This document shows positions 1,624 through 26,637 of a stretch of 38,621 bases of DNA, one piece after another. Source of the DNA: Bacillota bacterium (lineage in GTDB: Bacteria; Bacillota; Sulfobacillia; Sulfobacillales; Sulfobacillaceae); assembly GCA_021797675.1 (NCBI GenBank), contig JAJZZH010000136.1:1-38621 (forward strand). Reading direction: 5' to 3'. Made by a program: the position numbers and the translations under genes. Below the pieces are notes generated by a model, which searched no databases, was not told where the DNA came from, and saw only the letters and a list, made by a program, of their open reading frames with translations. Within the stretch, counting starts at the first letter, position 1, and each line of letters opens with the position of its first letter.

Positions 1624-2172
1624 CTAACTCCTCCACTGCGGTTCACCGTCAATCTTGAGTAGGCGATGACCAAAGCCGTGCTCCTCCGCCCAGCGGTAAT
1701 CATGACCGGCGTCGGACGGGTAGACGGCAAACCACACCAGGGGGGTCTCTCCGGTATTGATCACGCGGTGCGCCTGACCCCCTCCGATATAGGCGACCGT
1801 GCCGGGGTTCAGCCTCACGGACTCCCAGGCTCCGGTGGCATCGACCAACAGCAGGTAGCCCGTCCCTTGCAGGACCTGATAGACCTCGGTGCGGTCGAGC
1901 ACCTGATGCCGATGTCCCCGGGTAAACCCGTATTCCGCGCCCACCATGGTCGGATACAACACGGTCGTTCCGTATCCGAGTTTGGCGCCGTCCGCGTGCG
2001 AAGGCTCCACCAGATATACCTCGTAGACCACTACATTCTCCTTGGCCACCGCCGCGTTAAAGGCTCTTTCGTCCTGAAACAGCCCCGCCAAGTCGCACAA
2101 CCGAACCTCCCGCCGCGTAGCGCCAGTAATCACGCCGGCATGCGGTCCATCGATGATCAGGGTGCTATGCAT
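1624..2172 (-). CDS. pgiA: Cupin-type glucose-6-phosphate isomerase
   Basis: This 182-aa cytoplasmic enzyme should interconvert glucose 6-phosphate and fructose 6-phosphate. It belongs to the metal-dependent cupin phosphoglucose isomerases (cPGI), best known from Pyrococcus and Thermococcus (about 189 aa), not to the common PGI/SIS fold. The four expected metal ligands are all visible at nearly the archaeal positions: H87 and H89 (RGHRH), E96 (RTEVY) and H135 (GQAHR). The start ATG at 2172 overlaps the end of the Fe-S gene by 8 bases, so it is the last gene of the six-gene overlapping operon. In that operon it would connect the BadF-type hexose kinase to the PfkB kinase. A related isomerisation of a modified hexose phosphate cannot be excluded. 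Confidence 0.88.
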   Translation of the reverse strand: MHSTLIIDGPHAGVITGATRREVRLCDLAGLFQDERAFNAAVAKENVVVYEVYLVEPSHADGAKLGYGTTVLYPTMVGAEYGFTRGHRHQVLDRTEVYQVLQGTGYLLLVDATGAWESVRLNPGTVAYIGGGQAHRVINTGETPLVWFAVYPSDAGHDYRWAEEHGFGHRLLKIDGEPQWRS

Positions 2173-3181
2173 CCGCCGTCTCTCCTTTCGTGCAATAGGC
2201 CAACCATTCCGGTACGAGCCAGATCCGCTGATCGGGTCGCGCGATCTCCCCGAGCGCGCGAGCCATATAGGGGTCGTCGGTAATCACCGCGTCAAATGCT
2301 TCCTTTGTCAGATCGCCCCAGAAGGACAGGCTCATCGCGCTCAGCGTGGCCTGGCTGATGCCCGGAGCCGGCCCAGGGCTGACCACGCCCGGCTTCCACC
2401 AGCGCATGGCGCTGCCGGCGTCGATGCAGGCCGCGACGTCCTCCGCTGTTCCCAAATCCCGCGTCAAATAGGCCGACGGATGGTAGGCTCTGAGCCCTGC
2501 ACGGGGGGCGGGACGGATAACGGCCGGGTCTAACGCTTGGGCGAAGTATTCGACGGGCCGGTTGACACGCACGCCAAACTCCGTGGCGATCTGGTTCAGC
2601 CAGACCACGTCGCGCGGAAATGCCGCGACCACCGGGCCCGGCCAAGCGTTTAGCCGCTCGGCGACCTTCTCCAGATGCGGGTGCACTCGACCGCCGCTGA
2701 GGGCAAGGTTCCATCCCAAATCGATCCGGCAGCCCACCGCCCTGCGGGGGGAAAGCACCGAGACCGCGGCTTCGATGTTGGATTCGGCCCCAGGCGCCCA
2801 GTAATCGGCGATGACCAGCAGCGTCTGGCTTGAGCCAGGTGGCAACCCCGGTGGCGGCATCGCCGTCCGTTCGGCCGTCTGGGCTATCGGATGAGCCACG
2901 GCCTCCCGCAATTCCTGGCGGAGGTGAAGCAGCATCCGCCCGGGGTACATGGGCTGATCGGGGTAGACGCAGGCGGCCGTACAGCGATCACAATGGATAC
3001 AGGAATACAGCGTGTCCGCGACGGCATCCCAGGTTACCTGGCCCTGTCGCGCCGCAAAGGCCGCTTGCGCGAGCCGGGAGGGGGCGGTGGTGTGGCGACG
3101 GGTCGCCTGCGTGACCGGACACGCCGCAATACACGGCTCGTGGCACATCATGCAGGTGGCCAAACGCTCATTGGCAATCAT
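2165..3181 (-). CDS. Two-cluster 4Fe-4S oxidoreductase subunit
   Basis: The protein is 338 aa. The ATG at 3181 overlaps the FAD gene stop as ATGA, and the first cluster motif follows at once; a longer upstream frame exists but is not needed. Two ferredoxin-type motifs are clear: C10, C13, C17, C21 (CMMCHEPCIAACP) and C61, C64, C67, C71 (CIHCDRCTAACVYP). This is the layout of GlpC, GlcF and LutA N-termini, which pass electrons from a flavoprotein towards quinone or a carrier. The C-terminal two thirds lack the repeated CCG (CX..CCG) motifs of GlcF/GlpC and instead end in an unfamiliar domain, so it is not a standard member. It is translationally coupled to the FAD subunit, strongly suggesting one complex. 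The electron acceptor is unknown. Confidence 0.8.
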   Translation of the reverse strand: MIANERLATCMMCHEPCIAACPVTQATRRHTTAPSRLAQAAFAARQGQVTWDAVADTLYSCIHCDRCTAACVYPDQPMYPGRMLLHLRQELREAVAHPIAQTAERTAMPPPGLPPGSSQTLLVIADYWAPGAESNIEAAVSVLSPRRAVGCRIDLGWNLALSGGRVHPHLEKVAERLNAWPGPVVAAFPRDVVWLNQIATEFGVRVNRPVEYFAQALDPAVIRPAPRAGLRAYHPSAYLTRDLGTAEDVAACIDAGSAMRWWKPGVVSPGPAPGISQATLSAMSLSFWGDLTKEAFDAVITDDPYMARALGEIARPDQRIWLVPEWLAYCTKGETADA

Positions 3182-4599
3182 GCGGGTGGGGATCCCTCCT
3201 CGAACAAGACGCCGGGATTGCAAATGCCGTGCGGGTCTAAAACGGGTCGGAGCGTCCGCAGCAATTGTACCGCATCGGGCCGTGCCCGCTCGAGCCACGG
3301 CACGCGAGCACGGCCGATGCCATGGTGGTGGCTCACGCCGCCGCCCGCGTTCAGGGAGGCCGTCAGCGCCTGAGCAAGGACTTTATGATACCATGCGCGC
3401 ACGGCGTCTTCCTCCGCGGCCGGGGCCTTGGTCTCGATAATCACGTACACCGAGCCTCCGGAAGCATAAAAGTGGGAGAAATGGGCATAGACGCGCGTAC
3501 ACAGGGGACGGAGCGCCGACCGCATTGCGTGGTAGACCTGCGACAGGTGCGTCCAGCTGGCCCCCACCTCAATCGTCTCGGCAATCGTCCCCGGCCGGCG
3601 CAGGCTGGTGAGCAGCGCGCTGGTGTCAAACCGCCGGTTCCACCACCCTTGGCCCACCGTGTTGGGCAGCTGCCGCGCGCCCTGCTGCCGCGCCTGCTCC
3701 TCGGCAACGGCGGCTTCGGCGCCGATGATCGGCGCCAGTCCCTGAAAGTGGAGCAGCAGGACCGCACCGCCGTCCGCCAGGTCGGGAAACCATACCCCGC
3801 TTTCCTCGGGGTCGAAGAGGCGGGTGACGGTCGGTCTCACCCCATGTTGGACCAGCCACTGAATCACCGCGAGGCCGGAGGCCACGTCGCGGACTGCCCA
3901 TACCCGGATCACCTCAGGCAGGTCGCCCGGTTCCACCCGAAGCCGGGCCCGGGTAATAATGCCGAACCGTCCTTCACTGCCCAAAAACAGGCGGAGGAGG
4001 TCGGGCCCTTCGGACGCGGGCGGACCGCCCCCGAGGATAAGTCGTTCCCCCGTGCCCAGAACGACTTCGATCCCTTCCACCCGGTCCTCGATTCGGCCAT
4101 ATTTGGTCGACAGGATGCCGGTGGCGCGGGTGGCGAGCCATCCTCCAACGGTGGACGAGTGGAGCGACTGGGGATAGTGGGCCAGCGTGACCCCATGGTG
4201 ATCCCTGAGCCAGGCGTCGAGCTCCCCGCCGAACCACCCGGCTCCGGCGTCGACCACCTGACTGGCGGTATCGTAGATCACGGCGCGCAAGGCCTTGGTG
4301 TCGATCATCAAGGACGCCTCGGTGGATCCGGTCCCTCCCACGATGCCCGATCCGCCCCCGTAGGGAATCAGCGGGACACGCCAGCGATACGCCCAGTCGA
4401 CGAGCGTTTGCACTTCCTCGGCGCTTTGAGGCCAGGCCACCGCCGCCGGCAGGGGAAGGTTCCCGTTCTCCAGGCCTTTCAGCTCGATGGCCCACGTGCC
4501 ATGCCGATAGGCTAAGCGATCGGCGAGGTGCTGACTGACGCGACTGGGCGGTAGGATTGCCGCCAACTCCTGCATCCCCGCGACGGTCGGCTCAGCCAT
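3178..4599 (-). CDS. FAD-linked oxidoreductase, alkyl-DHAP-synthase-like
   Basis: The protein is 473 aa. The ATG at 4599 overlaps the aldolase stop by 8 bases; upstream in-frame ATGs lie deep in the aldolase gene. The N-terminal half is a PCMH-type FAD-binding domain with PYGGGSGIVGG near residues 79-89. The C-terminal half is an FAD-oxidase C domain ending in SHHHGIGR (423-430). That triple-His loop is typical of alkyl-dihydroxyacetonephosphate synthase and its bacterial relatives, where glycolate and D-lactate dehydrogenases have GEHGIG. The natural substrate is probably a hydroxyacid or a phosphorylated triose derivative. Genuine ether-lipid synthesis is unlikely because the gene sits with sugar-catabolic enzymes and an Fe-S partner. 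No membrane segment is seen. Confidence 0.82.
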   Translation of the reverse strand: MAEPTVAGMQELAAILPPSRVSQHLADRLAYRHGTWAIELKGLENGNLPLPAAVAWPQSAEEVQTLVDWAYRWRVPLIPYGGGSGIVGGTGSTEASLMIDTKALRAVIYDTASQVVDAGAGWFGGELDAWLRDHHGVTLAHYPQSLHSSTVGGWLATRATGILSTKYGRIEDRVEGIEVVLGTGERLILGGGPPASEGPDLLRLFLGSEGRFGIITRARLRVEPGDLPEVIRVWAVRDVASGLAVIQWLVQHGVRPTVTRLFDPEESGVWFPDLADGGAVLLLHFQGLAPIIGAEAAVAEEQARQQGARQLPNTVGQGWWNRRFDTSALLTSLRRPGTIAETIEVGASWTHLSQVYHAMRSALRPLCTRVYAHFSHFYASGGSVYVIIETKAPAAEEDAVRAWYHKVLAQALTASLNAGGGVSHHHGIGRARVPWLERARPDAVQLLRTLRPVLDPHGICNPGVLFEEGSPPA

Positions 4600-5389
4600 C
4601 GGAGCCGCCGTCCTCGCCATGGACAATCGCCCGGAAGGCGCTGAGCGCGGCTGCCGGATCCGGCTGCTGATAGATGTTGCGGCCGAAGACAATCCCCGCC
4701 CCGCCGCCCTTGACGATCGCTCGGGCTAACTGGTAGGCGTCTTCGGCGCGCTCCTTGCGCGGACCGCCAGCAATCACAATTGGGCAGGGACAGCTCTCCA
4801 CTAATTCCTGCAGCGCCTCAGGATGCCCCGGATACTTGGTCTTGATCAGGTCGGCCCCGATTTCGGCGGCAATCCGGGTGTGCAGTTTCAGGACGTCCAA
4901 GCGAAAATGGCCATCGGCGTCCTGCTCGTGGTGGACCGCCCGCGATTCGACCAAATGCACCAACCCCAGCCGGTCACACGCCTCCTGCACCCGGACCAGT
5001 TGTTCAATCTCGCGCGCTTCGTCGTGAGGATCGTCGAAGCCCAGATAGAGGTAGGTCATCACCCCGGCGGCGCCGCTCGCCGCCACCCGCTCCAATGATG
5101 CCAAGAGGGCCGTACTCCCCTCGCGATAGCCGAGCAGCGGGGCCGGCCGACTAATGTTCTGCCAGCCCAACAGCACCATCAGCCCCGGCGCATCGCGTCC
5201 TTCAAAGAGCGGCACCACATACCGCAACAATCCCGGTGGCACTAAGACCCCGTCGGCGCCGCGCAGCGTCTTGGCCTGCTGGGCCAACTCTGCGCGCGAC
5301 GCCAAGCCGGCCAGCGGGCCGAGCAAGACGCCGTGCGCGTACGCGACAAGAATTGTGCGGGCACTCGTGGGATGGACGATCCGGCTCAT
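4592..5389 (-). CDS. Class I (DhnA/FbaB-type) aldolase
   Basis: This 265-aa TIM-barrel aldolase belongs to the DeoC/FbaB (DhnA) family, which includes archaeal-type fructose-bisphosphate aldolase, LsrF and the sulfofructose-phosphate aldolase YihT. The Schiff-base lysine is K183 in ADLIKTKYPG. The phosphate-binding loops are IAGGPRKE (207-214) and GAGIVFGRNIYQ (from 230). The start ATG at 5389 overlaps the PfkB stop as ATGA; an earlier in-frame ATG at 5419 lies inside PfkB and is less likely. Placed after a PfkB kinase, it most simply splits a ketohexose 1-phosphate or 1,6-bisphosphate into DHAP and an aldehyde. The exact substrate cannot be read from sequence. Confidence 0.85.
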   Translation of the reverse strand: MSRIVHPTSARTILVAYAHGVLLGPLAGLASRAELAQQAKTLRGADGVLVPPGLLRYVVPLFEGRDAPGLMVLLGWQNISRPAPLLGYREGSTALLASLERVAASGAAGVMTYLYLGFDDPHDEAREIEQLVRVQEACDRLGLVHLVESRAVHHEQDADGHFRLDVLKLHTRIAAEIGADLIKTKYPGHPEALQELVESCPCPIVIAGGPRKERAEDAYQLARAIVKGGGAGIVFGRNIYQQPDPAAALSAFRAIVHGEDGGSDG

Positions 5390-6384
5390 TCTGAGGCGTT
5401 TGCCAATTGCTGAATCCATGTGAAAACCTCCTCTGCATTGGTCACCGGGCGAGCTTTGACGCGCTTAGCGAGAATCGCTACGCTGTGGGGCGACACCCGT
5501 CCGGCCTCGACGTAGGCCATATTATCCGTGGCGGCGGCGACGGCTTGGGCCATGATGGATGCTGGCGCCAGGCCGCGGAGGACGCCCGCCGCGATTGCTC
5601 CGACCATCGCATCGCCGCTGCCAATCGGGTTAAAGGGGCGGGCTGCCAGCGGTTCGAGATACACGATGGGCTGGGCCGGGGTTTTCATCAACGTCCCCCA
5701 TCGCCCCAGGCTCACTACCACATGGGACCGGGGTGCGGTCAGACGGCGCAACTCTCGCCAGATGGCCGCTGGATCGTTGGCCGCGACACCGACTCCGGTG
5801 GCGAACTCGAAGGCGTTGACCTTGATCCAGTCCGCCTGCTGCCGTAGCGCCTGGTCGAGCGTAGATCCGGCGACGTCGCAAATCGCCGTGCCCCCGCGCT
5901 CATGCACCGCGGCAATCAGGGTTCCGATCGCGCCGGCGTCGAGTCCCGGTGGCAGACTGCCGCCGATGATCACGACCGTACCCGCTTGCACCCAGGTCAG
6001 CGCGGCCGCTAGCAGCGCCTGAACATTCGCCTCGGTCAACCCGGGACCGGCTTCGATCAGTTCCACTTGCGCCCCGCGCTCGGCGTCCACAATGCTGACG
6101 TTGGTTCGGGTCTCGCCCGCGATCTCGACAACGGTGACCAAAACCCCTTGCTTTTCCAGCATTGATCGCCAGTGAGCGCCGGCGGGCCCGCCCACCGGGG
6201 CCACCACCCGCACGGCCGGCGCGCCGAGCTGCGACGCCACCAAGGCCGCATGCACCCCTGATCCCCCGGGATAGATCACGGTGTCGATGGCCCGCAGGGG
6301 CTCGCCGAGGGCAAACCCTTGCACCACCTCCATCCGGTCGAGCGCCGGGTTCGGGTTGACGGCCAACAAGCGTCCGCCGTTCAC
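5386..6384 (-). CDS. PfkB-family sugar kinase (LacC/FruK-like)
   Basis: This 332-aa ribokinase-fold kinase starts with GTG at 6384 and overlaps the upstream kinase stop as GTGA. Family marks are NPALDR (12-17), the glycine motif YPGGSGVHAA (38-47), GGSLPPG (141-147) and the anion-hole/catalytic motif NPIGSGDAMVGAIAAG (252-267) with catalytic D258. LacC and FruK usually have GGKG(I/V)N in the glycine motif; the GSGVH here is a variant that may alter sugar recognition. The expected role is phosphorylation of fructose 6-phosphate, tagatose 6-phosphate or a related ketose phosphate, feeding the aldolase encoded next. Confidence 0.85.
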   Translation of the reverse strand: MNGGRLLAVNPNPALDRMEVVQGFALGEPLRAIDTVIYPGGSGVHAALVASQLGAPAVRVVAPVGGPAGAHWRSMLEKQGVLVTVVEIAGETRTNVSIVDAERGAQVELIEAGPGLTEANVQALLAAALTWVQAGTVVIIGGSLPPGLDAGAIGTLIAAVHERGGTAICDVAGSTLDQALRQQADWIKVNAFEFATGVGVAANDPAAIWRELRRLTAPRSHVVVSLGRWGTLMKTPAQPIVYLEPLAARPFNPIGSGDAMVGAIAAGVLRGLAPASIMAQAVAAATDNMAYVEAGRVSPHSVAILAKRVKARPVTNAEEVFTWIQQLANASE

Positions 6385-7340
6385 GATCCGGCCGCCTGCG
6401 GCCAGTGCGCCAGCACGTCGTTGAGCGATAGCCCGTCGGCCGCCAGGGCGGCCAAGAGGGCTCCGTGCAAGGCGGTCCGTTCGGCGGTGCGCAGGCTGCT
6501 CCCGGATCCCCAGATCGCCGAGAGACCCTGACGGAGTTGATCGCAGTACCGACGCGAGGACATCAGCCCCCCGGCCCCATAGAGCGTCACGGGCTCTCCC
6601 GGAGTTTTTCCGGATGCCACTGCGGCGGCCGTAATTTGCCGGGCGAGGAGGTCCAGGCGGTGACGGAGGATGGCGAGCGCCACGCTGTCGCCCGCATCCG
6701 CCGCCTCCAGCAGCAAGGGGGCGAACCCGGCCAGCCAGCGGGCTTCACGGGTCCGGGCCATCACCATCACTTGGCGCATGGAACGCACCCGCAGGCGATT
6801 CAAGATCCGCATCCTCAGGCTACTCGACGGACCGTATCCGTCCTCCTCGGCGGACGCGGCCCGGAGGGCTTCCCGCCCAAGGTCCGCCCCGCCGCCCTCG
6901 TCGCCGAAGCGGTAGCCGTATCCGCCCACCAAAATCTCATGGTCGGCCGCATCCCGAGTAAAGACCGACGACCCGGTTCCGGCCACCACCAGCACGCCAT
7001 CGAGCGACGGCGCGGTAGCCCCCATCCACGCCGTGTAGGCGTCATGATGGACGATGACGCGCCGTGCCACCTCGGCCCGTTTCAGACCGGCGGCGATCCA
7101 GGCCCGATCGGCCTCGGTCACACACCCGGCGGCACCCACAAAGGCGACGTCGGCTGGGCCCTCGGTCCCCAGCACTTGGCGGGCGACCTGGGTTAGGGGT
7201 TCCAATACCCGGTCCTCGGCCACCGACGACAGACTGGCGGGCACGCCGTGGTCGGCTTCCTTCCAGGTCCTGGCCGGATACTCCCAAGCGAGGGCGCGGG
7301 TGCCGGTGCCGCCGGCGTCGATGCCCAAATAGGTTGCCAT
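6381..7340 (-). CDS. BadF/BadG-type sugar kinase (GlcNAc kinase-like)
   Basis: This 319-aa ASKHA-fold kinase is of the BadF/BadG/BcrA/BcrD ATPase group, the group that includes N-acetylglucosamine kinase. The ATG at 7340 has AAGGAGG 7 bases upstream, which is preferred over a longer frame from 7394. The ATP-binding signatures are IDAGGTGT (7-14), VVAGTGSS, and GYGYRFGDEGGGADLG, where the acidic pair and glycines match GlcNAc and glucosamine kinases. It lacks the cysteines of the reductase-activator members. It is the first of six overlapping genes and probably phosphorylates the hexose released by the neighbouring glycosidases. Glucose, mannose, GlcNAc or glucosamine are all possible. Confidence 0.85.
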   Translation of the reverse strand: MATYLGIDAGGTGTRALAWEYPARTWKEADHGVPASLSSVAEDRVLEPLTQVARQVLGTEGPADVAFVGAAGCVTEADRAWIAAGLKRAEVARRVIVHHDAYTAWMGATAPSLDGVLVVAGTGSSVFTRDAADHEILVGGYGYRFGDEGGGADLGREALRAASAEEDGYGPSSSLRMRILNRLRVRSMRQVMVMARTREARWLAGFAPLLLEAADAGDSVALAILRHRLDLLARQITAAAVASGKTPGEPVTLYGAGGLMSSRRYCDQLRQGLSAIWGSGSSLRTAERTALHGALLAALAADGLSLNDVLAHWPQAAGS

Positions 7341-7415: not shown

Positions 7416-8366
7416 TCAAGCGTAGGGGATGTCGTCACCCCGGCACACCGCCGCCTGCGTGGCCTCCATCACCGGAGCCCGTAGCCTGCCAAGCAGGTGC
7501 TGCGGCACGGTCGCGTCCCGGCGCACCACGAGCACCGCCGCGTTCATCGCCTGGGCCAGATGACGGGTGGGTTGCTGGTCGAGCGCCGCGACGACCAGTT
7601 GGTCCATGATGCCGACCGGCAGTAAAGCAGTGGTGTGCCATATGGCCGCGTCGATGGTACCTCGAGCAATCAGCCAGGGTAGCTGCCCGTAGGGGACGTT
7701 CACCCAGTCGACGTCGGCAAACTCCGCACGGGAGAGGGCGCTATGATCCTCGGAGGATTCGTCGATGCCCACCGTCCGAATCGCCTCGCGATCAGCCACC
7801 CGCTGTAAAATCACCACGGAGTCTTGGGCATAGTACGTTCCCGGCGAGAACTGATGGACAATGGTCAGATCGTTGTCCCCCGACCGCTCCGCCGCCCAGC
7901 GGGAAGCGAGCACAAAATCCCAGTGTCGATGCATCAGCCCCTCGAAGCGAGCACGGGCACCATTCACATAGGCCAGGCGAACCGGAAGGCTATGTCCTCG
8001 GAATTCGCGTTCCAGGGCCGTCGCCATGCCTTGAAACTCCAGCGAATAGGGTAGGGGCAGCGCCCCTACCAGGGGCGGCAGTCCAGAAAACTCCCAAAGG
8101 CGCCCGAGGTGCCGGTCCAACAGCAGCGAGCCTTGGGCGCCCCGGGCGGCGACCCGGATGGCCTCGGCTGCTTCCAGCACCCCGAGTGCGGCCTGCACGG
8201 TGCCCGATCCCGACTGGGTGCCCGCCATCCATTCTTGCGTGGTCGGCAATTGTTCCCCGGGGCTCATCGTCATCAGAGTCCGCGCCATGTATTGCACCGC
8301 GGAGAGCGTCTTGGGATACAAGTCCTCCACCGAAAACTTCCGACCGGACGGTCTGGTCAATCTCAT
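7416..8366 (-). CDS. YhfZ-like transcriptional regulator
   Basis: The protein is about 316 aa. The start is ATG 8366 (or GTG 8369), with GAGG just upstream. The first 75 residues look like a winged helix-turn-helix of the GntR/YhfZ kind (TTQEWMAGTQSGSGTVQAALGVLE). The rest, from LPPLVGALPLPYSLEFQGMA onward, resembles the YhfZ C-terminal domain, a periplasmic-binding-protein-like effector domain. It lies directly before the six-gene kinase/aldolase operon and behind the orphan binding protein, so it most likely controls this sugar cluster. The 18-bp palindrome upstream of the GH2 gene is a candidate site for it or for the GntR/LacI regulator at 22723. Confidence 0.65.
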   Translation of the reverse strand: MRLTRPSGRKFSVEDLYPKTLSAVQYMARTLMTMSPGEQLPTTQEWMAGTQSGSGTVQAALGVLEAAEAIRVAARGAQGSLLLDRHLGRLWEFSGLPPLVGALPLPYSLEFQGMATALEREFRGHSLPVRLAYVNGARARFEGLMHRHWDFVLASRWAAERSGDNDLTIVHQFSPGTYYAQDSVVILQRVADREAIRTVGIDESSEDHSALSRAEFADVDWVNVPYGQLPWLIARGTIDAAIWHTTALLPVGIMDQLVVAALDQQPTRHLAQAMNAAVLVVRRDATVPQHLLGRLRAPVMEATQAAVCRGDDIPYA

Positions 8367-8369
8367 CAC

Positions 8370-8587: not shown

Positions 8588-10240
8588 CTACTTGACCGGC
8601 CGCAGGTGGGTTAACACCATAAGGTTGTCTGGAAAGTACTGGCTCGGCTCGGCATACGGATGCTTCGGGGTCGGCCATCCCACATAGTGGTTGGTCTGAT
8701 ATTCATTCCACGACGCCCCGGACACCAACGCCACCACCGGCACCTGGGAAAACGTAATCTGCTGCAGTTGATCGACGATTTGACGCTGCTTGGCTACCTT
8801 CGTGGTCTGCGACAACGCATGCAGCAGTGTGTTGGTCCTGGCATTGTTCCAGCGCTCGCTGTTGGCGTTGAAGCTTGCCACCTGACCAACGGGCGCGGAC
8901 TCCGAAGACGCCAGCATATAGTCATAGATGAAGTAAGGATTCGATACGTTCCAGCCAGAGACGAGTGCCGCCTGATAGTGACCGGTCTCCACGTCATTAA
9001 CGTCGGTGACCACCGACGGCGTGATGACCCGAACTTTGATCCCGAGCTGGCCGAGTTCCTGCTGGATGATCTGACAATCTTGAATCCAGTCGGTCCACCC
9101 TGTCGGCACCTGCAGCGTGAAACGGACCTGCCGACCGTTTGGCCCGATGAGCGCCCCTTTTTTCTTATGATAGCCTATCGACGCTAACAATGCCGCAGCC
9201 TTGGCAGGATCGAAATGGTACGCGTACTTCCTGGCCAAATTGGTATCGAGCCATTGCTTGTCCAGGGTTGGAGGCAACAGCGATTGGTTGGCCGGCGGTT
9301 CGTAGCCATATTCCCCGTTGTGATAGATGCGCTGCCGGTTAATCGCGTAGGCCATGGCCTGTCGAAACTTCACCTGGTTGAACGGCGCCTGCGTCAAATT
9401 CAGGTAGAGGCTGACCGGCGACGCCAAGGGGAACCAGTAGTGGTAGGACTTGGGGTTGCGACTCACGTAGGCCTTTTGAATGTTAGGCTCGAAGAGGACC
9501 GCTTGGTCGAACTTGCCTTGGGACAACAGCAGGTCGTCGGTCTGAGCGCCGGTCATGGCCGGATAGTCGATGCCGGTCACCTTAACCAGGCGCTTGTTCC
9601 AGTAATAGGGGTTGGGCTTGAGCAGGTATTCTGACGGGTGAAAGGTTGCCACCCTAAATGGTCCCGTGCCGATGGGGGTGGTGTCCGTGAATTTGACCGG
9701 ATTGGCCACCTTAGACCACTGAAATGCGGGAACGATGGGAGTTTGCGCGAGTAACGAGAATTCTGGCACATCGGGCTTGCTGAAGTCAAAAAACACCTGG
9801 TTGCCTCGCGCGTACACCCGGCTCAGCACGTTCCACAGTCCGTTCGCATCGAGCGCGGGATACGCATGCAACAAGTTAAACGTATACGCCACGTCCTTGG
9901 CGGAAAACGGCTTCCCATTGTTCCACTTTACCCCCGAACGGATGGTAAACGTCAGTTGGGTTGCGCTGACCCAATGGTAGGCGGTGGCAAGCCACGGGGT
10001 GACCTTGCCGGTGAGCGCGTCCACAACCATTAGGGGCTCGAAAATGTCGATCCATCCCTGCCGGGCGGTGGGGGAAAACGGGTTGAAATTGTCGGTAAAG
10101 GTCGGGGAACCGTAATCGCTGCCGATGACCAGCGGGGGCGGCGGAGCCTTGGCCTGGGCCATGGGCATTGCCGTCCCCAGACCTGCCATGCTTACGGCCA
10201 GTAAAGGTATGGTCAGCCAGGATACTGTATGGTTGCGCAT
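8588..10240 (-). CDS. Orphan ABC oligosaccharide/peptide-binding protein
   Basis: The protein is 550 aa, an SBP family 5 (SBP_bac_5) extracytoplasmic solute-binding protein. The start ATG 10240 follows GGGAGGAAGG. A Sec-type signal peptide covers about residues 1-30 and ends in MAQAKA. There is no lipobox cysteine, which is odd for a Gram-positive-type binding protein. It has no permease or ATPase genes beside it. It is a close paralogue of the binding protein at 30919-32580: shared stretches include VPTGWTDWIQDCQII, GEYGYEPPANQ, KVRVITPSV and WNEYQTNHYVGWPT. It therefore probably docks onto the transporter encoded at 26983-30839. Placement behind a GH2 glycosidase gene favours a beta-linked oligosaccharide ligand, as with the Opp-like sugar transporters of thermophiles, rather than peptides. 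Confidence 0.88.
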   Translation of the reverse strand: MRNHTVSWLTIPLLAVSMAGLGTAMPMAQAKAPPPPLVIGSDYGSPTFTDNFNPFSPTARQGWIDIFEPLMVVDALTGKVTPWLATAYHWVSATQLTFTIRSGVKWNNGKPFSAKDVAYTFNLLHAYPALDANGLWNVLSRVYARGNQVFFDFSKPDVPEFSLLAQTPIVPAFQWSKVANPVKFTDTTPIGTGPFRVATFHPSEYLLKPNPYYWNKRLVKVTGIDYPAMTGAQTDDLLLSQGKFDQAVLFEPNIQKAYVSRNPKSYHYWFPLASPVSLYLNLTQAPFNQVKFRQAMAYAINRQRIYHNGEYGYEPPANQSLLPPTLDKQWLDTNLARKYAYHFDPAKAAALLASIGYHKKKGALIGPNGRQVRFTLQVPTGWTDWIQDCQIIQQELGQLGIKVRVITPSVVTDVNDVETGHYQAALVSGWNVSNPYFIYDYMLASSESAPVGQVASFNANSERWNNARTNTLLHALSQTTKVAKQRQIVDQLQQITFSQVPVVALVSGASWNEYQTNHYVGWPTPKHPYAEPSQYFPDNLMVLTHLRPVK

Positions 10241-10413: not shown

Positions 10414-12531
10414 CTAATCGTGGTGGAGATAGCGCAGGGGGCCCCCCAGCCTGACCAGGGTCACCGCATAATGATTTTGGGCGAGTTCCTCTCCACTTGG
10501 ATCCGTCAGACGAAGTCGCAGGGCCGCGGAGACCTTCTCCCGCGTGCCGGGAATCGTGCAGCCGAGTTGGGTGACCACCCCGCAATGGTCGGCATCGAGA
10601 TCGACCGGCGTTCTCGCTGATCCGAGGGGGCTCCCATGCTCATCAAATAGGTCCATCGTGACGATGCACCCCGGGAATCCGATCGGTAGGTCGTTGACGA
10701 CGTGCACGGGGACGGTGAACCCTCGGTCGACCGTGTAGACGCCGTCCCCGGCCGCGGCGTCCCCAGGGATGCTCACCATCACGGGCTGGCAAATTTCCTT
10801 CAGCGTGCGGTAGGCGAGCTTCGGTTCGCGATCATAATCCACCACCGACCACGTGATCGACGGCCAACAGTCCACGAACATGAATTGAAAGAATCCCACC
10901 ATGGGCTGCCATTTTGCACGGCGGTAATGCTCCACCGCCACCTTTAAGAGGCGTGCCTGATACGCCTGACTGGACGAGGCGAACGCTTCGAGGCTCGACG
11001 GAACCGGCAGGTTGGCCACATGGAACGTTTGGTGGTATTGGAAATCGTGATATCCCCAGGCCTCCCAGTCCGGGGGCCACGCCTTGTCCCCCAACATGGT
11101 CCGCAGGGCTTCGGCCGACGGCAGGGCCTGGGCGCCGAATTCGGTCACGAACGGGGCCCCGGGAATGCGTGCATATTCATGGAGGTCCCCATGATACCAT
11201 CCGGGATACGGATGCTGCGCGAAGGCCGCCTCGGGAACCGTCACCCTCGACGCGTCAAGCCCGCGCGCGGTTTGATCCAGGAGGTGGACCAGCGACTGCT
11301 GTTCTTCGGTAGGCTCGTTCTGCATGCACCACACCACGATCGAAGGGTGGTTGTACAACCCCTCAATCATGTCCCGTGCCTGGCGCACCGCCTCGGCGGC
11401 GAAGGTGTCGTCCTGGCTGTAGTTCCACTGTAGGGGAAAATCCTGCCAGAGGAGGAGCCCGGCACGGTCGCAGGCTTGATAAAATGCTTCGCGGTTGACG
11501 TGGACACAAACCCGAACGGCATTGAAGCCCGCTTCGCGGATTAAGCGCACGTCCTTGGCAATCCTCTCTGGCGTATACTCGCTGAGCCATTGCGTAGGCA
11601 TGATGTTGGTCCCGCGCACGAAGACCCGCCGACCGTTTACGATCCACGCTCCCTCGTCGCCGAGTTCTATGGAGCGGATACCAACCTCGATCTCCCGCTG
11701 GTGGGTGCCATATTCCGAGTCGAGGGTCATCCTCGCCGAGTACACATATGGCTCGCCCATATCCCACGACCACCACAGCCGTGGATTTTCCACGGTCACC
11801 ACGGATTGCACACGGTTGAGCCCAGGCGTGACCACCATCGTTGGCGCCGGCTGCGATCCCACCTCGCTGTCATCGCCCACCATCACCGCCGCGAGCGTCA
11901 CCGAAACCGCGCGCTCGGCGAGGTTAACCACTTCGACTGCGAACGACACCCGCGCGCGTCCTTCCTTGGGCAGCCATTGGGGGGTTGCGCGTACCGCGTG
12001 GATGAACACCCGCGGCACCGTTTCGATCCATACGGAGTTCCAAATCCCTCCACTGCCCTGATCTTGGCCGGTCACGGGATCCCACGACCCCGGCCGACAG
12101 TCCCAGTGATTAAATAATCCTTTAATTTGCCGCTTACGGTTCGGCCAATCCCCCTCGGCCTCCCGTGCGGCCGTTACCTTGACGACGAGTTCGTTGGAAC
12201 CGGGGACCAGCGCCTGGGTAATCCGGTATGCAAACGGCTGAAAATACCCTTCGTGTTCGCCGAGGAGCTGACCGTTCAGCCATACCACGGCTTGGTAGTC
12301 GACGCCGCCAAAATGCAGCCACAGATCCTCGTCGGTATTGAACCCGGACGTCATCGGAAACCGTTTCCGATACCATACGGTACCTAAGACATCGCCCAAA
12401 TCGGTGCGCATCCAGTTCGCCGGCACCGGCACCGGTTTCCACGACGGATGTGCTGCCAGGCGGTCAAAGCTAAGGACGCCTTCCCTGTCCACCAGACCTT
12501 CCCAATCACCATTGAGGCTCGTCATTGGCAT
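10414..12531 (-). CDS. GH2 glycosidase, beta-mannosidase-like
   Basis: The protein is 705 aa. The start ATG 12531 follows GAGGAGGTGA at good spacing. The order of domains is the GH2 one: a jelly-roll sugar-binding domain (about 1-175), an immunoglobulin-like domain (about 180-290) and a TIM barrel (about 295-600), then a short beta domain. The acid/base is E406 in WCMQNEP and the nucleophile is E464 in FVTEFGAQALPS. The E-F-G-x-Q-x-x-P pattern after the nucleophile favours beta-mannosidase or exo-beta-glucosaminidase over LacZ or GusA. No signal peptide is seen, so it acts in the cytoplasm on imported oligosaccharides. It is the first gene of the minus-strand sugar cluster. Specificity is inferred. 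Confidence 0.85.
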   Translation of the reverse strand: MPMTSLNGDWEGLVDREGVLSFDRLAAHPSWKPVPVPANWMRTDLGDVLGTVWYRKRFPMTSGFNTDEDLWLHFGGVDYQAVVWLNGQLLGEHEGYFQPFAYRITQALVPGSNELVVKVTAAREAEGDWPNRKRQIKGLFNHWDCRPGSWDPVTGQDQGSGGIWNSVWIETVPRVFIHAVRATPQWLPKEGRARVSFAVEVVNLAERAVSVTLAAVMVGDDSEVGSQPAPTMVVTPGLNRVQSVVTVENPRLWWSWDMGEPYVYSARMTLDSEYGTHQREIEVGIRSIELGDEGAWIVNGRRVFVRGTNIMPTQWLSEYTPERIAKDVRLIREAGFNAVRVCVHVNREAFYQACDRAGLLLWQDFPLQWNYSQDDTFAAEAVRQARDMIEGLYNHPSIVVWCMQNEPTEEQQSLVHLLDQTARGLDASRVTVPEAAFAQHPYPGWYHGDLHEYARIPGAPFVTEFGAQALPSAEALRTMLGDKAWPPDWEAWGYHDFQYHQTFHVANLPVPSSLEAFASSSQAYQARLLKVAVEHYRRAKWQPMVGFFQFMFVDCWPSITWSVVDYDREPKLAYRTLKEICQPVMVSIPGDAAAGDGVYTVDRGFTVPVHVVNDLPIGFPGCIVTMDLFDEHGSPLGSARTPVDLDADHCGVVTQLGCTIPGTREKVSAALRLRLTDPSGEELAQNHYAVTLVRLGGPLRYLHHD

Positions 12532-12981: not shown

Positions 12982-14161
12982 ATGATTTCCCTGGGATCGA
13001 TCACCGAGTTCTTCACCAACACGGGTCAGCTTCGGCTCTCGCAGCGCAAAACCCTCGCGGCCCTCGTCTGGGCTGTCCTATATGAACCCTTGCTGGGCAT
13101 TGCAAAAATCGGCCGGCATTTAGCCATGGCGAACACGACAACGGCCAAGCATGCTATTCAGCGCGTGGATCGCTTCGTGGGCAACCTCCGGATCAATATG
13201 GAGGTGGCCCAAGGGGATTTATTCGCAGGGTGGTCGGCACGGCCACCCGCGTCTTCCTGACCCTCGATTGGACCGAACCCAACGACGGCGTCCACCAAAT
13301 CCTGACGTGTAATCTGCGGGCCCATGGACGCGCGTTACCGCTGGCGTGGACGACCGTGCGCAAGGACGCGTTGAAGGATCGGACCCGGTGGTATGAGCAA
13401 CAATTGTGTGGGCGCGTGGCGGCCTTGGTCCCCAAGGCCTGCCAAGTCATCTTGTTAGCCGATCGGGGCTTTGCTACGGTGGAATTCTTCCGATTCCTGG
13501 ATACGTTAGGGTGGGACTGGATTATTCGGAGCAAGGGGTCGGTCTCGGTGCAGCATCTGGGACAATGGATCCTCCTCGGGTTATCCCCGGCTTTTACGCA
13601 GTCCATGGGGATTTCCTCCTACCGTCGGTCATTGGGTCAACCCCGCCCTGCCCGTGGCGATTATCCAGAGATTCTCTACGGCAAGCGTGCGACCGGGGGA
13701 TCATACCGGGGCGGCGGGTGGTCTATGCGGACTTAGTGCATACCGACCCGTGGTTCTTGATGGTCTCGGCGGGATTAGCGGATTGGTCGTGGGGCATGGT
13801 GGTGGCGGGATATGCCAAGCGGTTGACCTGCGAAGAATCTTACCGGGATTCGAAAAACGACCTGTATGAGGGCTTTCAGATGGATGGCGTAGATCTCGGC
13901 ACCCCCGCTCGCTGGGATCGGATGTTTTTGGTCTTTGCCTGGGCGTATTATTTGTTGCATGTAGGCGGTTGGGACGTCGAAGCCCGCGGGGATGCGCGGC
14001 ATTGGAAAGCCAACACGGATCCCCAACGGACGCATGCGTTATGGCGCCTGGGGGAATGGGGACTCAAACATCACGACGTGGTTTGGCGGACGATCGTGCG
14101 GAGCCTGGAGGCCTTTCGCGAAGCGATCCCGGCCTGGCAAGCAGTGCCGGTGCCCACGTAA
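12982..14161 (+). pseudogene. IS4-family transposase, two frameshifts
   Basis: This is a DDE transposase of the IS4 family read in three successive frames. The first runs from ATG 12982 to about 13230, the second from about 13230 to 13590, and the third from about 13590 to 14161. Catalytic parts are all recognisable: LDWTEPNDG (first D), LADRGFATVEFF (second D), and YAKRLTCEESYRDSK, a perfect Y-2-R-3-E-6-K signature with the catalytic E. Two separate shifts, neither at an obvious slippery heptamer, mean the copy is dead. I could not find terminal inverted repeats that match each other, so the right end may be lost. It separates the minus-strand GH2 cluster from the plus-strand ABC operon. Confidence 0.85.
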
Positions 14162-15420: not shown

Positions 15421-15646
15421 GAATTATATGCTAACGTTACGTATCCGAATCATTCTGCGGAACGGATAATGGTTGCGGAAGAATCCTAGCTAGAGTACAC
15501 GACGACGCCAGTCCGTAATCATCCACGATAATTGGCAATATTTGCGGTGGTCGTTCTGAAAAGTGTACAGCGAATGTTGCCGCATTCTTTGGCAAGGCGT
15601 TGCGCAGAACGATTGGATAATTCTATACGAGGAGAAGGTCCATCTA

Positions 15647-17545
15647 ATGAAGGGACGCAAATATGGTGCCGGTGGCGCCAAAGCAGGACTAGCCGGCCTG
15701 GTGGGTTTGTCGCTGATTGCTGCCGGACCGATCGCCGCCGCGCATATCACGCCGTCTGTCCACCGGGCCGCGGTCCACGCGACGGGGACATTTACCACGT
15801 ATGCCCCTACCGGGTACCTTCCGCAAGCCGACTGGAATCCTTTTGGTCAGTCGGGCAGCACCTGTAACACCGCCGTAGGGGTCCTGGCATTTTCCCCCTT
15901 GGCCATTCAGTCTAATACGCCCCGCGACGGTGGGGAATATTTTTATCCCCAACTGGCGAGTTCCTGGGGCTACACGCATCACTTCAAGGACTTCGTGGTC
16001 CATCTGCGGCCGCATCTCAAGTGGAGTAATGGCAAGCCACTGACCAGTCAGGATGTCGTCACCAGCTGGGACCTTTACGGGCTCACCGGTGCGTGGGTTG
16101 GGGCGCAGATTCAAAATGTCTATGCTCCCAATTCCAGCACGGTGGTGTTCGTGCGTAAGCGGCCCGGATTTTCTCTGGCCTTCGCGGGACAGGTGTTGAC
16201 GCTATATATCGCACCGGCTTCGATATATCAGAAGTTCGTGCCATCCAAGGCGACGTTTCAAAAAATGATGGCGGTCAACGATATGCCGTCGTCCCAGCAA
16301 AAACCGTACAAGAAGCTCCTGACGCAATTGACGGCCGACGCCAAGAAACTTATCGCCTTCAATCCCGGTCCCGCCGGCTTGGTCACTGCGGGGCCGTATA
16401 CCGTCAAGGCGTTTTCCCCTGGCGAAGTCCTGTTGCAAAAAAATCCGAACAACTGGGCCGCCGCCAATGTGCATGTCCAAAACGTGGACCTGATTAACCA
16501 AACTGGCACCGAGGCGGTACAAAACGCCGCCGTAGCCGGGAAATTTGATGCCTTCGGTTATCAGCCGACGACCCCTCTTTATGACGCTATCATGAGCCGC
16601 AACCGTCCCTATATCCATTACATGAAGCCCAAGCCCTTTTTGACACCCAATGGGCTTTTTTACAATTTCAAGGACTATCCCTACAACAAGGTGCAGGTCC
16701 GTCAAGCCATCGCCTATGTCGTGAACCGCAACGCCGTGATGAAGCTGTCTGACCCGGTAGCCGGGGTCCCCAACCCAATTCCGGCGGGCGTGCCGCTGGA
16801 TTACATCAAGGCCTATCTGAGTCCGGCCCAAATCAAGACCTTGAATCCCTACCACCGCAATCTGAAAAAGGCTGCTCAGTTGCTGAACTCGGTGGGATTT
16901 AAGAAAAAGCACGGCACGTGGTATATGCCAAACGGGAAACCGTTTAAAATTACCATTATCAGCATCACGACGCTGGCCAGCTGGGATTTGACCGCCGAGG
17001 CGACGGCCAATGAATTGACCCAATTCGGCATACCGTCCAAGATGGAGCTCCGCGACGTGGGTTCGTTCGGACAAGAGATGGTCAAAGGTGAGTATCCGAT
17101 GTATGGGGGCTACGTCTTTATGTGGCCATTTCAGCCCTGGGGGTCACTCGGCGCGATCTTTTCCTATTGGGGGCAAGGCGGTATCAGCTTCAAAACGAAT
17201 GGACAGGTGCTGCCTCCCGCCACCAAGGGGGATGTAGGGTTTGGATTTCCGACCCACGTCACCGTCCCCGGTATCGGGACGGTCGATCCGGCCAAGTTGG
17301 CTTGGCAGTTCCAGTATACGTCGAGCAAGGCCCAGCAGGATCAGATTATGTACAAGTTGGTCAAGACGATGAACTACGAGTGTTGGCCCTTTGTGGAGTA
17401 CTTCCAAGACCAATCCTTCTTTTATTCGACGAAGAATTTTACCGACTGGCCAGTACACCGATCGTTCTTTGACCTGGTCGGTGACGGCAGTGCCAACTAC
17501 TTTCTCACCGTGGCCGAGGAAAACGGCTACGTGCGTCCAAAATAG
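15647..17545 (+). CDS. ABC transporter solute-binding protein (family 5)
   Basis: The protein is 632 aa, an SBP_bac_5 (DppA/OppA-like) protein. ATG 15647 follows GAGGAGAAGG; a longer frame from 15563 lacks a signal peptide at its start. The signal peptide covers about residues 1-32, with a likely cleavage at AAA-H. Again there is no lipobox cysteine. Typical family stretches are DWNPFGQSG near the start, HLRPHLKWSNGKPLTSQDV, and VRQAIAYVVNRNAV. It is clearly diverged from the other two binding proteins of the window and longer than them. It heads a complete transporter operon that runs to 21782, next to alpha-mannosidase genes, so an alpha-mannoside ligand is a reasonable guess. Confidence 0.9.
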   Translation: MKGRKYGAGGAKAGLAGLVGLSLIAAGPIAAAHITPSVHRAAVHATGTFTTYAPTGYLPQADWNPFGQSGSTCNTAVGVLAFSPLAIQSNTPRDGGEYFYPQLASSWGYTHHFKDFVVHLRPHLKWSNGKPLTSQDVVTSWDLYGLTGAWVGAQIQNVYAPNSSTVVFVRKRPGFSLAFAGQVLTLYIAPASIYQKFVPSKATFQKMMAVNDMPSSQQKPYKKLLTQLTADAKKLIAFNPGPAGLVTAGPYTVKAFSPGEVLLQKNPNNWAAANVHVQNVDLINQTGTEAVQNAAVAGKFDAFGYQPTTPLYDAIMSRNRPYIHYMKPKPFLTPNGLFYNFKDYPYNKVQVRQAIAYVVNRNAVMKLSDPVAGVPNPIPAGVPLDYIKAYLSPAQIKTLNPYHRNLKKAAQLLNSVGFKKKHGTWYMPNGKPFKITIISITTLASWDLTAEATANELTQFGIPSKMELRDVGSFGQEMVKGEYPMYGGYVFMWPFQPWGSLGAIFSYWGQGGISFKTNGQVLPPATKGDVGFGFPTHVTVPGIGTVDPAKLAWQFQYTSSKAQQDQIMYKLVKTMNYECWPFVEYFQDQSFFYSTKNFTDWPVHRSFFDLVGDGSANYFLTVAEENGYVRPK

Positions 17546-23886: not shown

Positions 23887-23943
23887 GCGCGCAGGGGCAG
23901 TTTCCCAATGACATTTGTTATCCAACGATCGGAGGAATTTTTC

Positions 23944-26637
23944 ATGGGCAGCAATCAACCGATTCGCGAACTGCTCATTTACCACCACTCCCACTTAGAC
24001 GTCGGCTACACCCATCATCCGGACACGGTGTGGGCACGTCAGGGAGATTATCTCCGGCTGGCCATGGACTTGGCCGAACGCTACGCCGAACGGCCGGAGG
24101 GAGAGCGCTTCAAATGGACGGCGGAGAGCAGCGCCGTGGTCGAGCGTTTCCTGCAGTCGGCGAGTACCGGGGAGATCGACCGATTTGTGCGGTTGAGTCA
24201 GGCGGGGTTGATCGAGACCACGGCGATGTTTTGCAACACGACGCCGCTGTTCACCGCCAGCGAGCTCTGGGCGAGCCTGGGGGTGATGCAGCGCTTGCGG
24301 CGGGATTTCGGCCTGACGATTGAGAGCGCGGTCAATCATGACGTCAATGGCGCGGCATGGATTTTGCCCAAGGTGCTGGGTCAACTCGGGATCCGCCTGT
24401 TGGTCATGGGCATTAACCAGGATTCGGCGCGCGCTCCGCTGCCGAGGCCCCGCGCGTTTTGGTGGGAAGGTCGTGAGGGTGAACGGCTGTTGACGTGGAA
24501 CGGTGAACATTACGGATATGCCCAGTATGTGGGGATTCCACGACCGAAGGCGTGGACGCGGGGCACGGCCGACCTTACGGCCAGCCAACAACAGCTCGAT
24601 GCCTATTTGGATCGGATCGTGGGGGAAGGGTATCCCTACGACTTTCTGGTCCTGTCGGTGACCAACACGGTAACGTGGGACAACGACGCTCCCAACGAAG
24701 AACTGGTGCAGTTTGTTCAGGCTTGGAACCAATCCGGCAGAAGTCCCCGGCTTTCCATCGTCACCCCTCGCGACGTCTCGGGGTATCTTCACCGTCAACC
24801 CGCCGGCACCATCCCGGTGCGCCGAGGGGATTGGACCGACTGGTGGGCCGATGGCGTGGGGTCGACCGCCCGAGAGACCGCCCTCGCCTTGTGGACGGGG
24901 CGGATGTGGGAAGGCGCGCGAATCCTCGCCGGGCTGAGCCCGCTGCTGTCGGAGGCGGACCGTCGCGAGTTCAGCCGCCTGGACGCGGAGGTTCTCCGTC
25001 ACCTCTGGCTCTACAACGAGCACACCTGGGGCAGCGCCCAGAGTATCAGCCGTCCCGACACAGTGAATGGCCGGGGGCAGTGGATCGCCAAGGCGAGCCA
25101 TGCTTACGAAGGCGCGGCGGGGGCCCACCGCTTGTGGACGTTGGCCAGCCGAGGGCTGGCGGCCGCGATTGAAGATGACGGCGAGCCGTCCGTCATGGTG
25201 TTCAATCCCTTGCCCTGGGATGCCCGGGTGCGCGCGGTGTTGCCGCACTTCCGGGAAGCCGCAGCCTTGGGCGGAGCCTTTCCGCTGCAGGAACTCGCCC
25301 GCGATATCGACCTGGCGAATCCGGTCAGCCCGGATTATGTGGCCGGTCCGCCAACCGACTACGGATTGGTGTCAATCTCTGCGCTGAGCTACCGTACGCT
25401 CCCGCTGCGTGCGCCAAATCCTGAGGCGAAGAGTGGGGGGGAACGGTGGACCCTCACCAGCCCGTGGCTGAAGGCAACCGTCGACCCCGCCACCGGGGCG
25501 CTAAGCAGCCTCATTACCCGCGCTGACGGCCGTGAGTGGGGCAAGCTGGGCGGGGACTATGGCCTCGGGGAATACGTCTATCACCGCCTCATGACGCCGC
25601 GGGGCCGCCGCGACCTGCAGCCGCCTCGCCCGGCCGAGGATGTACGCAGCCAATGGGCGATTGACGAGCGCCGGGTTACTCGCGTGATTGAGCAGAGCCT
25701 GATCCCGGGGCCGGGCCTGGCCTCGATGCGGCTCAAGCTCGACGCGGCCGGGATGCGATCGTTGGAAGTGACCTATACGGTCTACGACGACGAACCATGG
25801 CTGGATCTGCACTACCGGTTCGATAAGGGGGAAGCTCGCGGCATTGAATCGGTCTACGTGGTCTTTCCCTTGAATCTGAAGGCACCCGACTTTCACTATG
25901 CGTCGGCGGGCACCGTGATTCAGGGCGAGACCGACCAGTTGGCAAACGCTTGCCGCGATTACTATAGTGTGGAAAACTGGGCAGATCTCTCCGACCCGGA
26001 TGGAGGGCTCACCCTGGCCACCCCCGACGCCCCGCTCGTGCTGTGGGGCGGCTTTACCGTAGGCGCCTACGCCGAACGACACTCCGCTGCCGAATCCTGT
26101 TTGGTGGGGTGGGTGATGAATAACAAATGGCACACCAATTTCCGCCACGCCCAGCCGGGTGTGGTCGAGATGCGTTACCGTGTGTGGGCTCACTCCGCGC
26201 CCTTCGACCCGGTCGCCGCCCAAGTCTTTGGTCTGACGACGGCCATGCCGCTCATGGCCACTCCGGTGATGCGGGGGGAGGCCGCGATGGTGACCGACGG
26301 TTTAGCGCCCCGGCAGGCGGACCGCGGGCAATGGTTGAAGGTGTCGCCCGCCCACGTGCGAATTATCGAACTCACCCCCGTTTTGGGTGAGGAAAACGCC
26401 GCCGATGCGTGGCGCATAGGGTTGCAACTCTTGGCTCCGGTAGACCAAGGCAGCCTGGCCTGGAGCGGACCAGGGCGATCCTTGCGGGAAGCGTGGATCA
26501 CTGACTGGAACACCGGAAGGCGGCTCGCTCCCCTGAGCGTAGCGAACGGAACGTGCCACTGGTCTGGGCAGGCCGGAGAATGGGTAGCCATGGAGTTGCG
26601 TCTGAGTGCGGGCCGCACCACCGAAACGACCGGCTAA
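23944..26637 (+). CDS. GH38-like alpha-mannosidase
   Basis: The protein is 897 aa. ATG 23944 follows GGAGG, so the 12 codons upstream in the same frame are not used. The N-terminal domain has HHSHLDVGYTH (14-24), whose H17 and D19 match the Zn-binding H-x-D of GH38. The expected nucleophile is D133 in SAVNHDVNGAAW. A helical region and large beta-sandwich domains follow. There is no signal peptide, so it acts on imported glycans in the cytoplasm. Sequence style is closer to the divergent bacterial GH38 group (including proteins annotated as DUF5054) than to the lysosomal or MngB type, so alpha-mannosidase activity is probable but unproven. It is the last gene of the plus-strand block. Confidence 0.8.
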   Translation: MGSNQPIRELLIYHHSHLDVGYTHHPDTVWARQGDYLRLAMDLAERYAERPEGERFKWTAESSAVVERFLQSASTGEIDRFVRLSQAGLIETTAMFCNTTPLFTASELWASLGVMQRLRRDFGLTIESAVNHDVNGAAWILPKVLGQLGIRLLVMGINQDSARAPLPRPRAFWWEGREGERLLTWNGEHYGYAQYVGIPRPKAWTRGTADLTASQQQLDAYLDRIVGEGYPYDFLVLSVTNTVTWDNDAPNEELVQFVQAWNQSGRSPRLSIVTPRDVSGYLHRQPAGTIPVRRGDWTDWWADGVGSTARETALALWTGRMWEGARILAGLSPLLSEADRREFSRLDAEVLRHLWLYNEHTWGSAQSISRPDTVNGRGQWIAKASHAYEGAAGAHRLWTLASRGLAAAIEDDGEPSVMVFNPLPWDARVRAVLPHFREAAALGGAFPLQELARDIDLANPVSPDYVAGPPTDYGLVSISALSYRTLPLRAPNPEAKSGGERWTLTSPWLKATVDPATGALSSLITRADGREWGKLGGDYGLGEYVYHRLMTPRGRRDLQPPRPAEDVRSQWAIDERRVTRVIEQSLIPGPGLASMRLKLDAAGMRSLEVTYTVYDDEPWLDLHYRFDKGEARGIESVYVVFPLNLKAPDFHYASAGTVIQGETDQLANACRDYYSVENWADLSDPDGGLTLATPDAPLVLWGGFTVGAYAERHSAAESCLVGWVMNNKWHTNFRHAQPGVVEMRYRVWAHSAPFDPVAAQVFGLTTAMPLMATPVMRGEAAMVTDGLAPRQADRGQWLKVSPAHVRIIELTPVLGEENAADAWRIGLQLLAPVDQGSLAWSGPGRSLREAWITDWNTGRRLAPLSVANGTCHWSGQAGEWVAMELRLSAGRTTETTG

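Follow-up and report, generated by a model that had tools for sequence, protein, structure and literature searches.

Gene organisation at the locus

The 38,621-nucleotide (nt) contig JAJZZH010000136.1, referred to here as the window, comes from a Bacillota bacterium of the Sulfobacillaceae (assembly GCA_021797675.1; 4.06 Mb, 242 contigs). At positions 1624-7340 it carries six minus-strand genes, which encode two sugar kinases of the BadF and PfkB types, a class I aldolase, a flavoprotein resembling AGPS (alkyl-dihydroxyacetone-phosphate synthase), an iron-sulphur (Fe-S) partner and a cupin isomerase (Table 1). Each family match lies above the Pfam curated cut-off, and the genes, families and position are those of the original prediction, which had described an overlapping sugar operon. 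Its overlaps of 4-8 nt throughout needed correction at one junction. With the most plausible starts we obtain 4 nt for BadF/PfkB, 34 nt for PfkB/aldolase, 8 nt for aldolase/flavoprotein, 4 nt for flavoprotein/Fe-S and 8 nt for Fe-S/cupin. The 34 nt value was preferred to the 4 nt given by an ATG at 5389: a strong Shine-Dalgarno sequence, AGAGGAGG, stands before the aldolase ATG at 5419, and this start also agrees with those of relatives. The BadF start at 7340 is preceded by AAGGAGG. Chance does not account for six overlapping genes on one strand that all have family matches. A YhfZ-type regulator gene, overlooked previously, lies 75 nt upstream of BadF on the same strand and is probably the seventh member of the operon.

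The flavoprotein and its Fe-S partner

The best PDB sequence match of the flavoprotein is Dictyostelium AGPS (2uuu, 6.4e-47), and every GlcD type ranks behind it. Its predicted structure (mean pLDDT 84) gave AGPS for each of the top 36 Foldseek matches, with the D-lactate dehydrogenases following afterwards. The protein carries the motif SHHHGIG, in contrast to the T/SGEHG of GlcD types, and H455-H457 are invariant in the family alignment. The NCBIfam GlcD model scores 118.6 bits against a cut-off of 567.9. By sequence, HHH motif and predicted fold the protein is best assigned to the AGPS-like family. On the motif, the model score and the predicted fold we reject a glycolate or D-lactate oxidase, and the C2-C3 hydroxyacid dehydrogenase activity suggested in the original prediction is not supported. 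A GlpABC-type identity was also considered, and Pfam revealed no DAO (GlpA) protein among the operon genes. The catalytic residues of Dictyostelium AGPS are R352, Y508 and R447 (PMC3509576). With the numbering shifted by 3, an offset deduced from all three positions, R291 and Y416 of the flavoprotein match the first two and L361 occupies the position of R447, leaving two of the three residues of a true synthase.

Neighbourhoods of AGPS-type genes were drawn from 398 genomes of the phylum, 151 of the class, plasmids and an 80-locus scan of public genomes. The flavoprotein as a single sequence gave no match against the genome contigs and an alignment query was required. Of the 79 AGPS-type loci, 63 have GlpD/GlpA- or GlpK-like genes no more than 4 kb away, compared to none of 17 GlcD-type controls (Fisher 3.7e-10, uncorrected for relatedness or for similarity-based sampling). 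Most of these neighbours are assigned at the family level; the kinases of loci L058 and L077 are GlpK in NCBIfam, and that of L192 scores 646 bits against the L058 kinase. These three loci contain the nearest relatives of the flavoprotein, which group with it in the tree, and all three are operons with a GlpK-type kinase and either GlpA or GlpD. YhfZ-type regulators adjoin AGPS-type genes in 14 loci, one of which, on a Microbacterium plasmid, is annotated YhfZ/FAD/GlpK/GlpD. The family has another setting on a Methylobacterium nodulans plasmid (L184), where the AGPS-like gene precedes PdxA and the gene for a four-carbon acid sugar kinase. In Pseudomonas aeruginosa the AGPS-like/GlpD-like/kinase operon PA3026-PA3024 has been proposed to function in glycerolipid metabolism, with the reaction unproven, and its deletion gave no phenotype (PMC8151288). 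Although such loci are widespread, we found no assigned function for the bacterial AGPS-like flavoproteins encoded beside GlpD/GlpK-like genes.

The best PDB matches to the predicted fold of the Fe-S partner are EtfD, HdrB and LutA. In the alignment both [4Fe-4S] motifs are kept and the CCG cysteines are absent; compared with the CCG subunits HdrB, GlcF and LutA, the predicted fold therefore fits and the cysteines do not. The L077 Fe-S protein is in the same state. In its L058 counterpart (2589-3689) the second cluster is lost, as is one cysteine of the first, and in that of L192 (11392-12531) nearly all cluster cysteines are gone. We therefore view the pair as belonging to a family that is losing its redox centres, for which both oxidative and non-oxidative roles are possible. 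A plasmid search with the Fe-S protein gave no match.

The aldolase and the hexose enzymes

In alignments the aldolase retains K193, the Schiff-base lysine, has AHG instead of DHG, and places an arginine at the position of a tyrosine; the DHG aspartate and this tyrosine are the catalytic acid/base residues of fructose bisphosphate (FBP) aldolase. The model for archaeal-type class I FBP aldolase gives 99.7 bits, far from its cut-off of 430. As the two acid/base residues are missing, plain fructose bisphosphate is an unlikely substrate. PfkB has E. coli Pfk-2 as its best PDB match and reaches 196.8 bits with TIGR03168, below the cut-off of 216.4. Here GGSGVH replaces GGxGIN, changing the sugar-site asparagine (GGxGxN) to histidine, and the GSGD catalytic motif is kept. 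The substitutions in these two enzymes argue for an unusual substrate, an idea already present in the original prediction and strengthened by them.

The cupin isomerase and BadF look, from their sequences, like genuine hexose-phosphate enzymes. The isomerase scores 82.1 bits with PF06560 (cut-off 20.7) and 155.8 bits against a solved glucose-6-phosphate isomerase, and its His/Glu metal site is intact (GHRH..TEVY..AHR). BadF scores 73.9 bits with PF01869 (cut-off 31.5) and 81.7 bits with the NagK equivalog (cut-off 370), and its nearest solved relative is the hexokinase 2e2n (1.2e-23, 87 bits). A truncated cupin isomerase, ~65% identical over the C-terminal half, occurs in the same-genus genome G506 (L168:9538-9830). 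A frame change lies just ahead of it and it follows two FGGY kinase genes; it looks like a decayed copy within an operon of the pentose type.

The closest aldolase we found is that of Streptomyces sp. ODS25 (43% identity), which has serine for the aspartate and the same arginine. At this locus (L190) the aldolase and a YhfZ gene are divergent from an AGPS-like flavoprotein and an FGGY kinase. The subtype is rare: among 394 genomes of the same class, a strong match turned up in its own genome only. Streptomyces belongs to another phylum and the locus has no hexose genes; the linkage suggests that YhfZ, the aldolase and the flavoprotein belong to one pathway.

DhnA aldolases are found with a kinase and a dehydrogenase in other operons of the polyol type, as GlpD-aldolase-FGGY in Rhizobium and Parasedimentitalea, and as PfkB-FGGY-three Zn-ADH-aldolase in a relative (L110). 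The first of these arrangements, on plasmids of Rhizobium sp. SL42 and Parasedimentitalea (L272, L273), is part of an Lsr-like operon that also has an ABC transporter, a sugar-binding regulator and an aldo/keto reductase, and its genes are annotated as glycolysis and glycerol genes. At L101, L102 and L104 a DhnA aldolase adjoins a Gfo/Idh oxidoreductase, PfkB and two large GH38-type genes; at L102 both GH38 genes were confirmed and a lyxose-isomerase-like cupin is present. With DhnA aldolases in several other operons, including the rhizobial and f172 loci, the aldolase alone was rejected as a marker of the pathway.

Accessory status and conservation

The genome encodes a canonical phosphofructokinase (PFK) of its own, on contig C92, and it has three class II FBP aldolases that likewise lie away from the contig studied here. 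The operon is therefore accessory and not housekeeping glycolysis, and a replacement of the housekeeping route is ruled out by the same genes. This agrees with the earlier view of a dedicated, unusual operon whose flavin/Fe-S pair stands outside ordinary glycolysis. A canonical glucose-6-phosphate isomerase (PGI, PF00342) was not found in this genome or in 12 relatives (13 genomes, family and order), so that its absence is not special to the source genome.

Around homologues of the flavoprotein, the aldolase, the cupin, BadF and PfkB, no second locus with the six-gene unit was present among the matches listed, which for the cupin, BadF and PfkB means the neighbourhoods of the top matches. The original prediction named a lack of co-conservation elsewhere as grounds against it. 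Among these matches that lack holds for the six genes as a unit, but the sub-module of YhfZ, aldolase and flavoprotein does recur, in Streptomyces. The exact gene combination was not found in any other genome searched.

Regulator, transport and glycosidase genes

The YhfZ-type regulator scores 170.2 bits with PF14503 and 207.1 bits with the YhfZ_full equivalog (cut-off 260). The titles and abstracts of the YhfZ literature name no ligand. Upstream of its gene, on the same strand, are a family-5 solute-binding protein and then a GH2 gene. The family-5 proteins at 8588-10240 and 30919-32676 are alike, a third lies at 15563-17545, and two Opp-type ABC gene sets are located between the family-5 genes. 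It is possible that the GH38-like gene further along supplies the sugar of the operon. Mannosides as the substrate are a guess, made from the GH2 and GH38-like genes. Two open reading frames on the plus strand, 619-1344 (241 codons) and 13406-14161 (251 codons), have no Pfam match.

Table 1. Operon genes and neighbouring features, with positions in the window.
Feature	Position	Strand	Basis
Cupin-type glucose-6-phosphate isomerase (cPGI)	1624..2172	-	PF06560
Fe-S partner, two [4Fe-4S] cysteine motifs, HdrB/LutA/EtfD-like C-terminal domain without CCG cysteines	2165..3181	-	PF13183, alignment, predicted fold
AGPS-like FAD protein, SHHHGIG motif	3178..4599	-	PF01565 + PF02913
DhnA/LsrF-type class I aldolase, variant active site	4592..5419	-	PF01791 (DeoC/LacD)
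PfkB kinase, Pfk-2/1-PFK/tagatose-6-P kinase group	5386..6384	-	PF00294
BadF-type sugar kinase	6381..7340	-	PF01869
YhfZ-family regulator, heads the gene run	7416..8369	-	PF14503 + PF14502
Family-5 solute-binding protein, Opp-type ABC transporter	8588..10240	-	PF00496, 222 bits
GH2 glycosidase	10414..12531	-	Nearest solved relative beta-mannosidase 5n6u, 2e-43
GntR/LacI-type regulator, ahead of the GH38-like gene	22723-23886		
GH38-like (alpha-mannosidase family) protein	23908..26637	+	PF01074, 1.9e-12

Proposed pathway and alternatives

We tentatively propose, at somewhat less than an even chance, that this is a dedicated hexose or polyol catabolic operon under YhfZ control, with the oxidation of a glycerol-phosphate-like intermediate assigned to the flavin/Fe-S pair. 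In its favour are the family assignments, the AGPS-like identity of the flavoprotein, the glycerol genes beside its relatives, the YhfZ and Streptomyces linkages, the DhnA aldolases of other polyol-type operons, the separate housekeeping PFK and FBP aldolases, and the precedent of PA3026-PA3024. The nearby beta-mannosidase-like GH2 and GH38-like enzymes, together with the Opp-type transporters, may supply a hexose or a hexose-containing compound. BadF would phosphorylate the sugar, the cupin isomerase would make the ketose phosphate and PfkB would phosphorylate this once more, giving a product for the DhnA-type aldolase to cleave by way of a Schiff base at K193. The flavoprotein and Fe-S protein would form a two-subunit dehydrogenase recruited from glycerol or polyol-phosphate metabolism, converting a glycerol-phosphate-like secondary alcohol to a keto phosphate. 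This alcohol may be a polyol phosphate made before the aldolase step, or glycerol phosphate released from a glycerol-bearing substrate. Electrons would leave by way of the two [4Fe-4S] clusters for an acceptor that is not reached over the usual CCG-domain route. The suggested order of kinase, isomerase, kinase, flavin dehydrogenase and aldolase is drawn by analogy with the operons that combine a DhnA aldolase, a kinase and a dehydrogenase.

Several observations weigh against this proposal. The branch of the flavoprotein is long (1.31) and support for its grouping is moderate (81-92), an electron path that is essential is hard to square with the decay of the Fe-S partner in the nearest clade, and for an ordinary sugar the isomerase, hexokinase and PfkB would require no oxidative step. 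The operon also has no glycerol kinase or GlpD-like gene, and the substrate of the pair must therefore arise from another step. An ordinary sugar is what a plain accessory hexose operon would use, with BadF, cPGI, PfkB and the aldolase performing upper glycolysis on a mannoside sugar and the pair, an alternative glycerol-3-phosphate dehydrogenase feeding or draining dihydroxyacetone phosphate (DHAP), merely sharing the promoter. The closeness of cPGI and BadF to true hexose enzymes, the GlpK/GlpD company of the pair's relatives and the two mannosidase-like genes in the window are all consistent with this, and where PF00342 is lacking from 13 genomes a cupin isomerase could be useful. We nevertheless consider it unlikely, as the aldolase lacks the aspartate and tyrosine of FBP aldolase, PfkB lacks the sugar-site asparagine, housekeeping PFK and FBP aldolases are already present, and the rare aldolase subtype is tied to YhfZ and an AGPS-like protein in Streptomyces where hexose genes are absent.

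In the original prediction the aldolase splits a modified or deoxy hexose, and the pair oxidises the unusual aldehyde or hydroxyacid so released. The variant aldolase and PfkB, the dedicated operon and a flavin plus Fe-S architecture resembling GlcDF would accord with it, but the active-site motif is of the AGPS type with a score far under the GlcD cut-off, and the relatives sit in a glycerol/polyol context. Moreover, 6-deoxy sugars cannot take a C6 phosphate from a hexokinase. Oxidation of the aldolase product as such appears quite improbable to us; since the flavoprotein's relatives are tied to glycerol and polyol genes, the oxidation of a polyol phosphate, possibly before the aldolase step, has a chance no smaller than this. 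A sulfoquinovose-type or 6-deoxyhexose pathway was rejected, the C6 kinase speaking against it and a literature search offering no usable support. AGPS-like chemistry without net redox is a further alternative, in which a flavin-N5 adduct forms with a 1-O-substituted DHAP phosphate, the C1 ether or ester is cleaved or exchanged, and the Fe-S protein persists as a decaying structural subunit. This would accord with the AGPS predicted fold, the HHH motif, the retained Arg291 and Tyr416 equivalents and the progressive loss of Fe-S cysteines in the nearest clade; GlpK-GlpD-AGPS trios would yield exactly such a 1-O-substituted DHAP phosphate, and the glycerolipid role proposed for PA3026-PA3024 points the same way (PMC8151288). 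We regard it as improbable for the window operon, where leucine stands for the third catalytic arginine, the Fe-S partner retains both [4Fe-4S] motifs and the operon has no lipid or glycerol kinase gene. A more speculative extension, which we hold to be very improbable, is that bacterial AGPS-like flavoproteins are generally catabolic, cleaving 1-O-substituted DHAP phosphates (glycerol ethers, esters or glycosides) by AGPS-type flavin-adduct chemistry once a kinase and a dehydrogenase have prepared them, with the present operon a sugar-pathway version whose redox partner is being lost.

Comparison with known systems

With an AGPS-like protein tied to a defined set of sugar kinases, to an isomerase and to a variant aldolase, all under a single regulator, the range of possible substrates can be narrowed. 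Should fructose bisphosphate and fructose 6-phosphate indeed be rejected by the aldolase and PfkB, this would point to an undescribed sugar or polyol pathway.

Of the systems compared, PA3026-PA3024 in the GliR regulon of P. aeruginosa (PMC8151288) shares the AGPS-like FAD protein, a kinase for carbohydrates and an oxidation step of the glycerol-phosphate type. It differs in having GlpD-like and FGGY genes and an AraC regulator, and no aldolase, isomerase or PfkB; the window operon has the YhfZ regulator, hexose genes and Fe-S partner instead. The window flavoprotein matches AGPS/ADPS in its predicted fold, HHH motif and two of three catalytic residues, whereas it lacks the third, an arginine, has an Fe-S partner and lies in a sugar operon. 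The pairing of an FAD-oxidase subunit with an Fe-S subunit carrying an HdrB-like domain is shared with the GlcDEF, LutABC and EtfD-type systems, from which the window pair departs in its AGPS-type motif, missing CCG cysteines and scores below the GlcD cut-offs. Archaeal-type upper glycolysis (hexokinase, cPGI, a PfkB-type kinase and DhnA class I FBP aldolase) uses the same four enzyme families in the same pathway order; in the window, however, aldolase and PfkB residues are altered, PFK and FBP aldolase are encoded separately, and the flavin/Fe-S pair and YhfZ are added. The Streptomyces sp. ODS25 locus has in common YhfZ, the closest aldolase and an AGPS-like flavoprotein, and differs in that one FGGY kinase replaces BadF, PfkB and the cupin, with no Fe-S gene adjacent.

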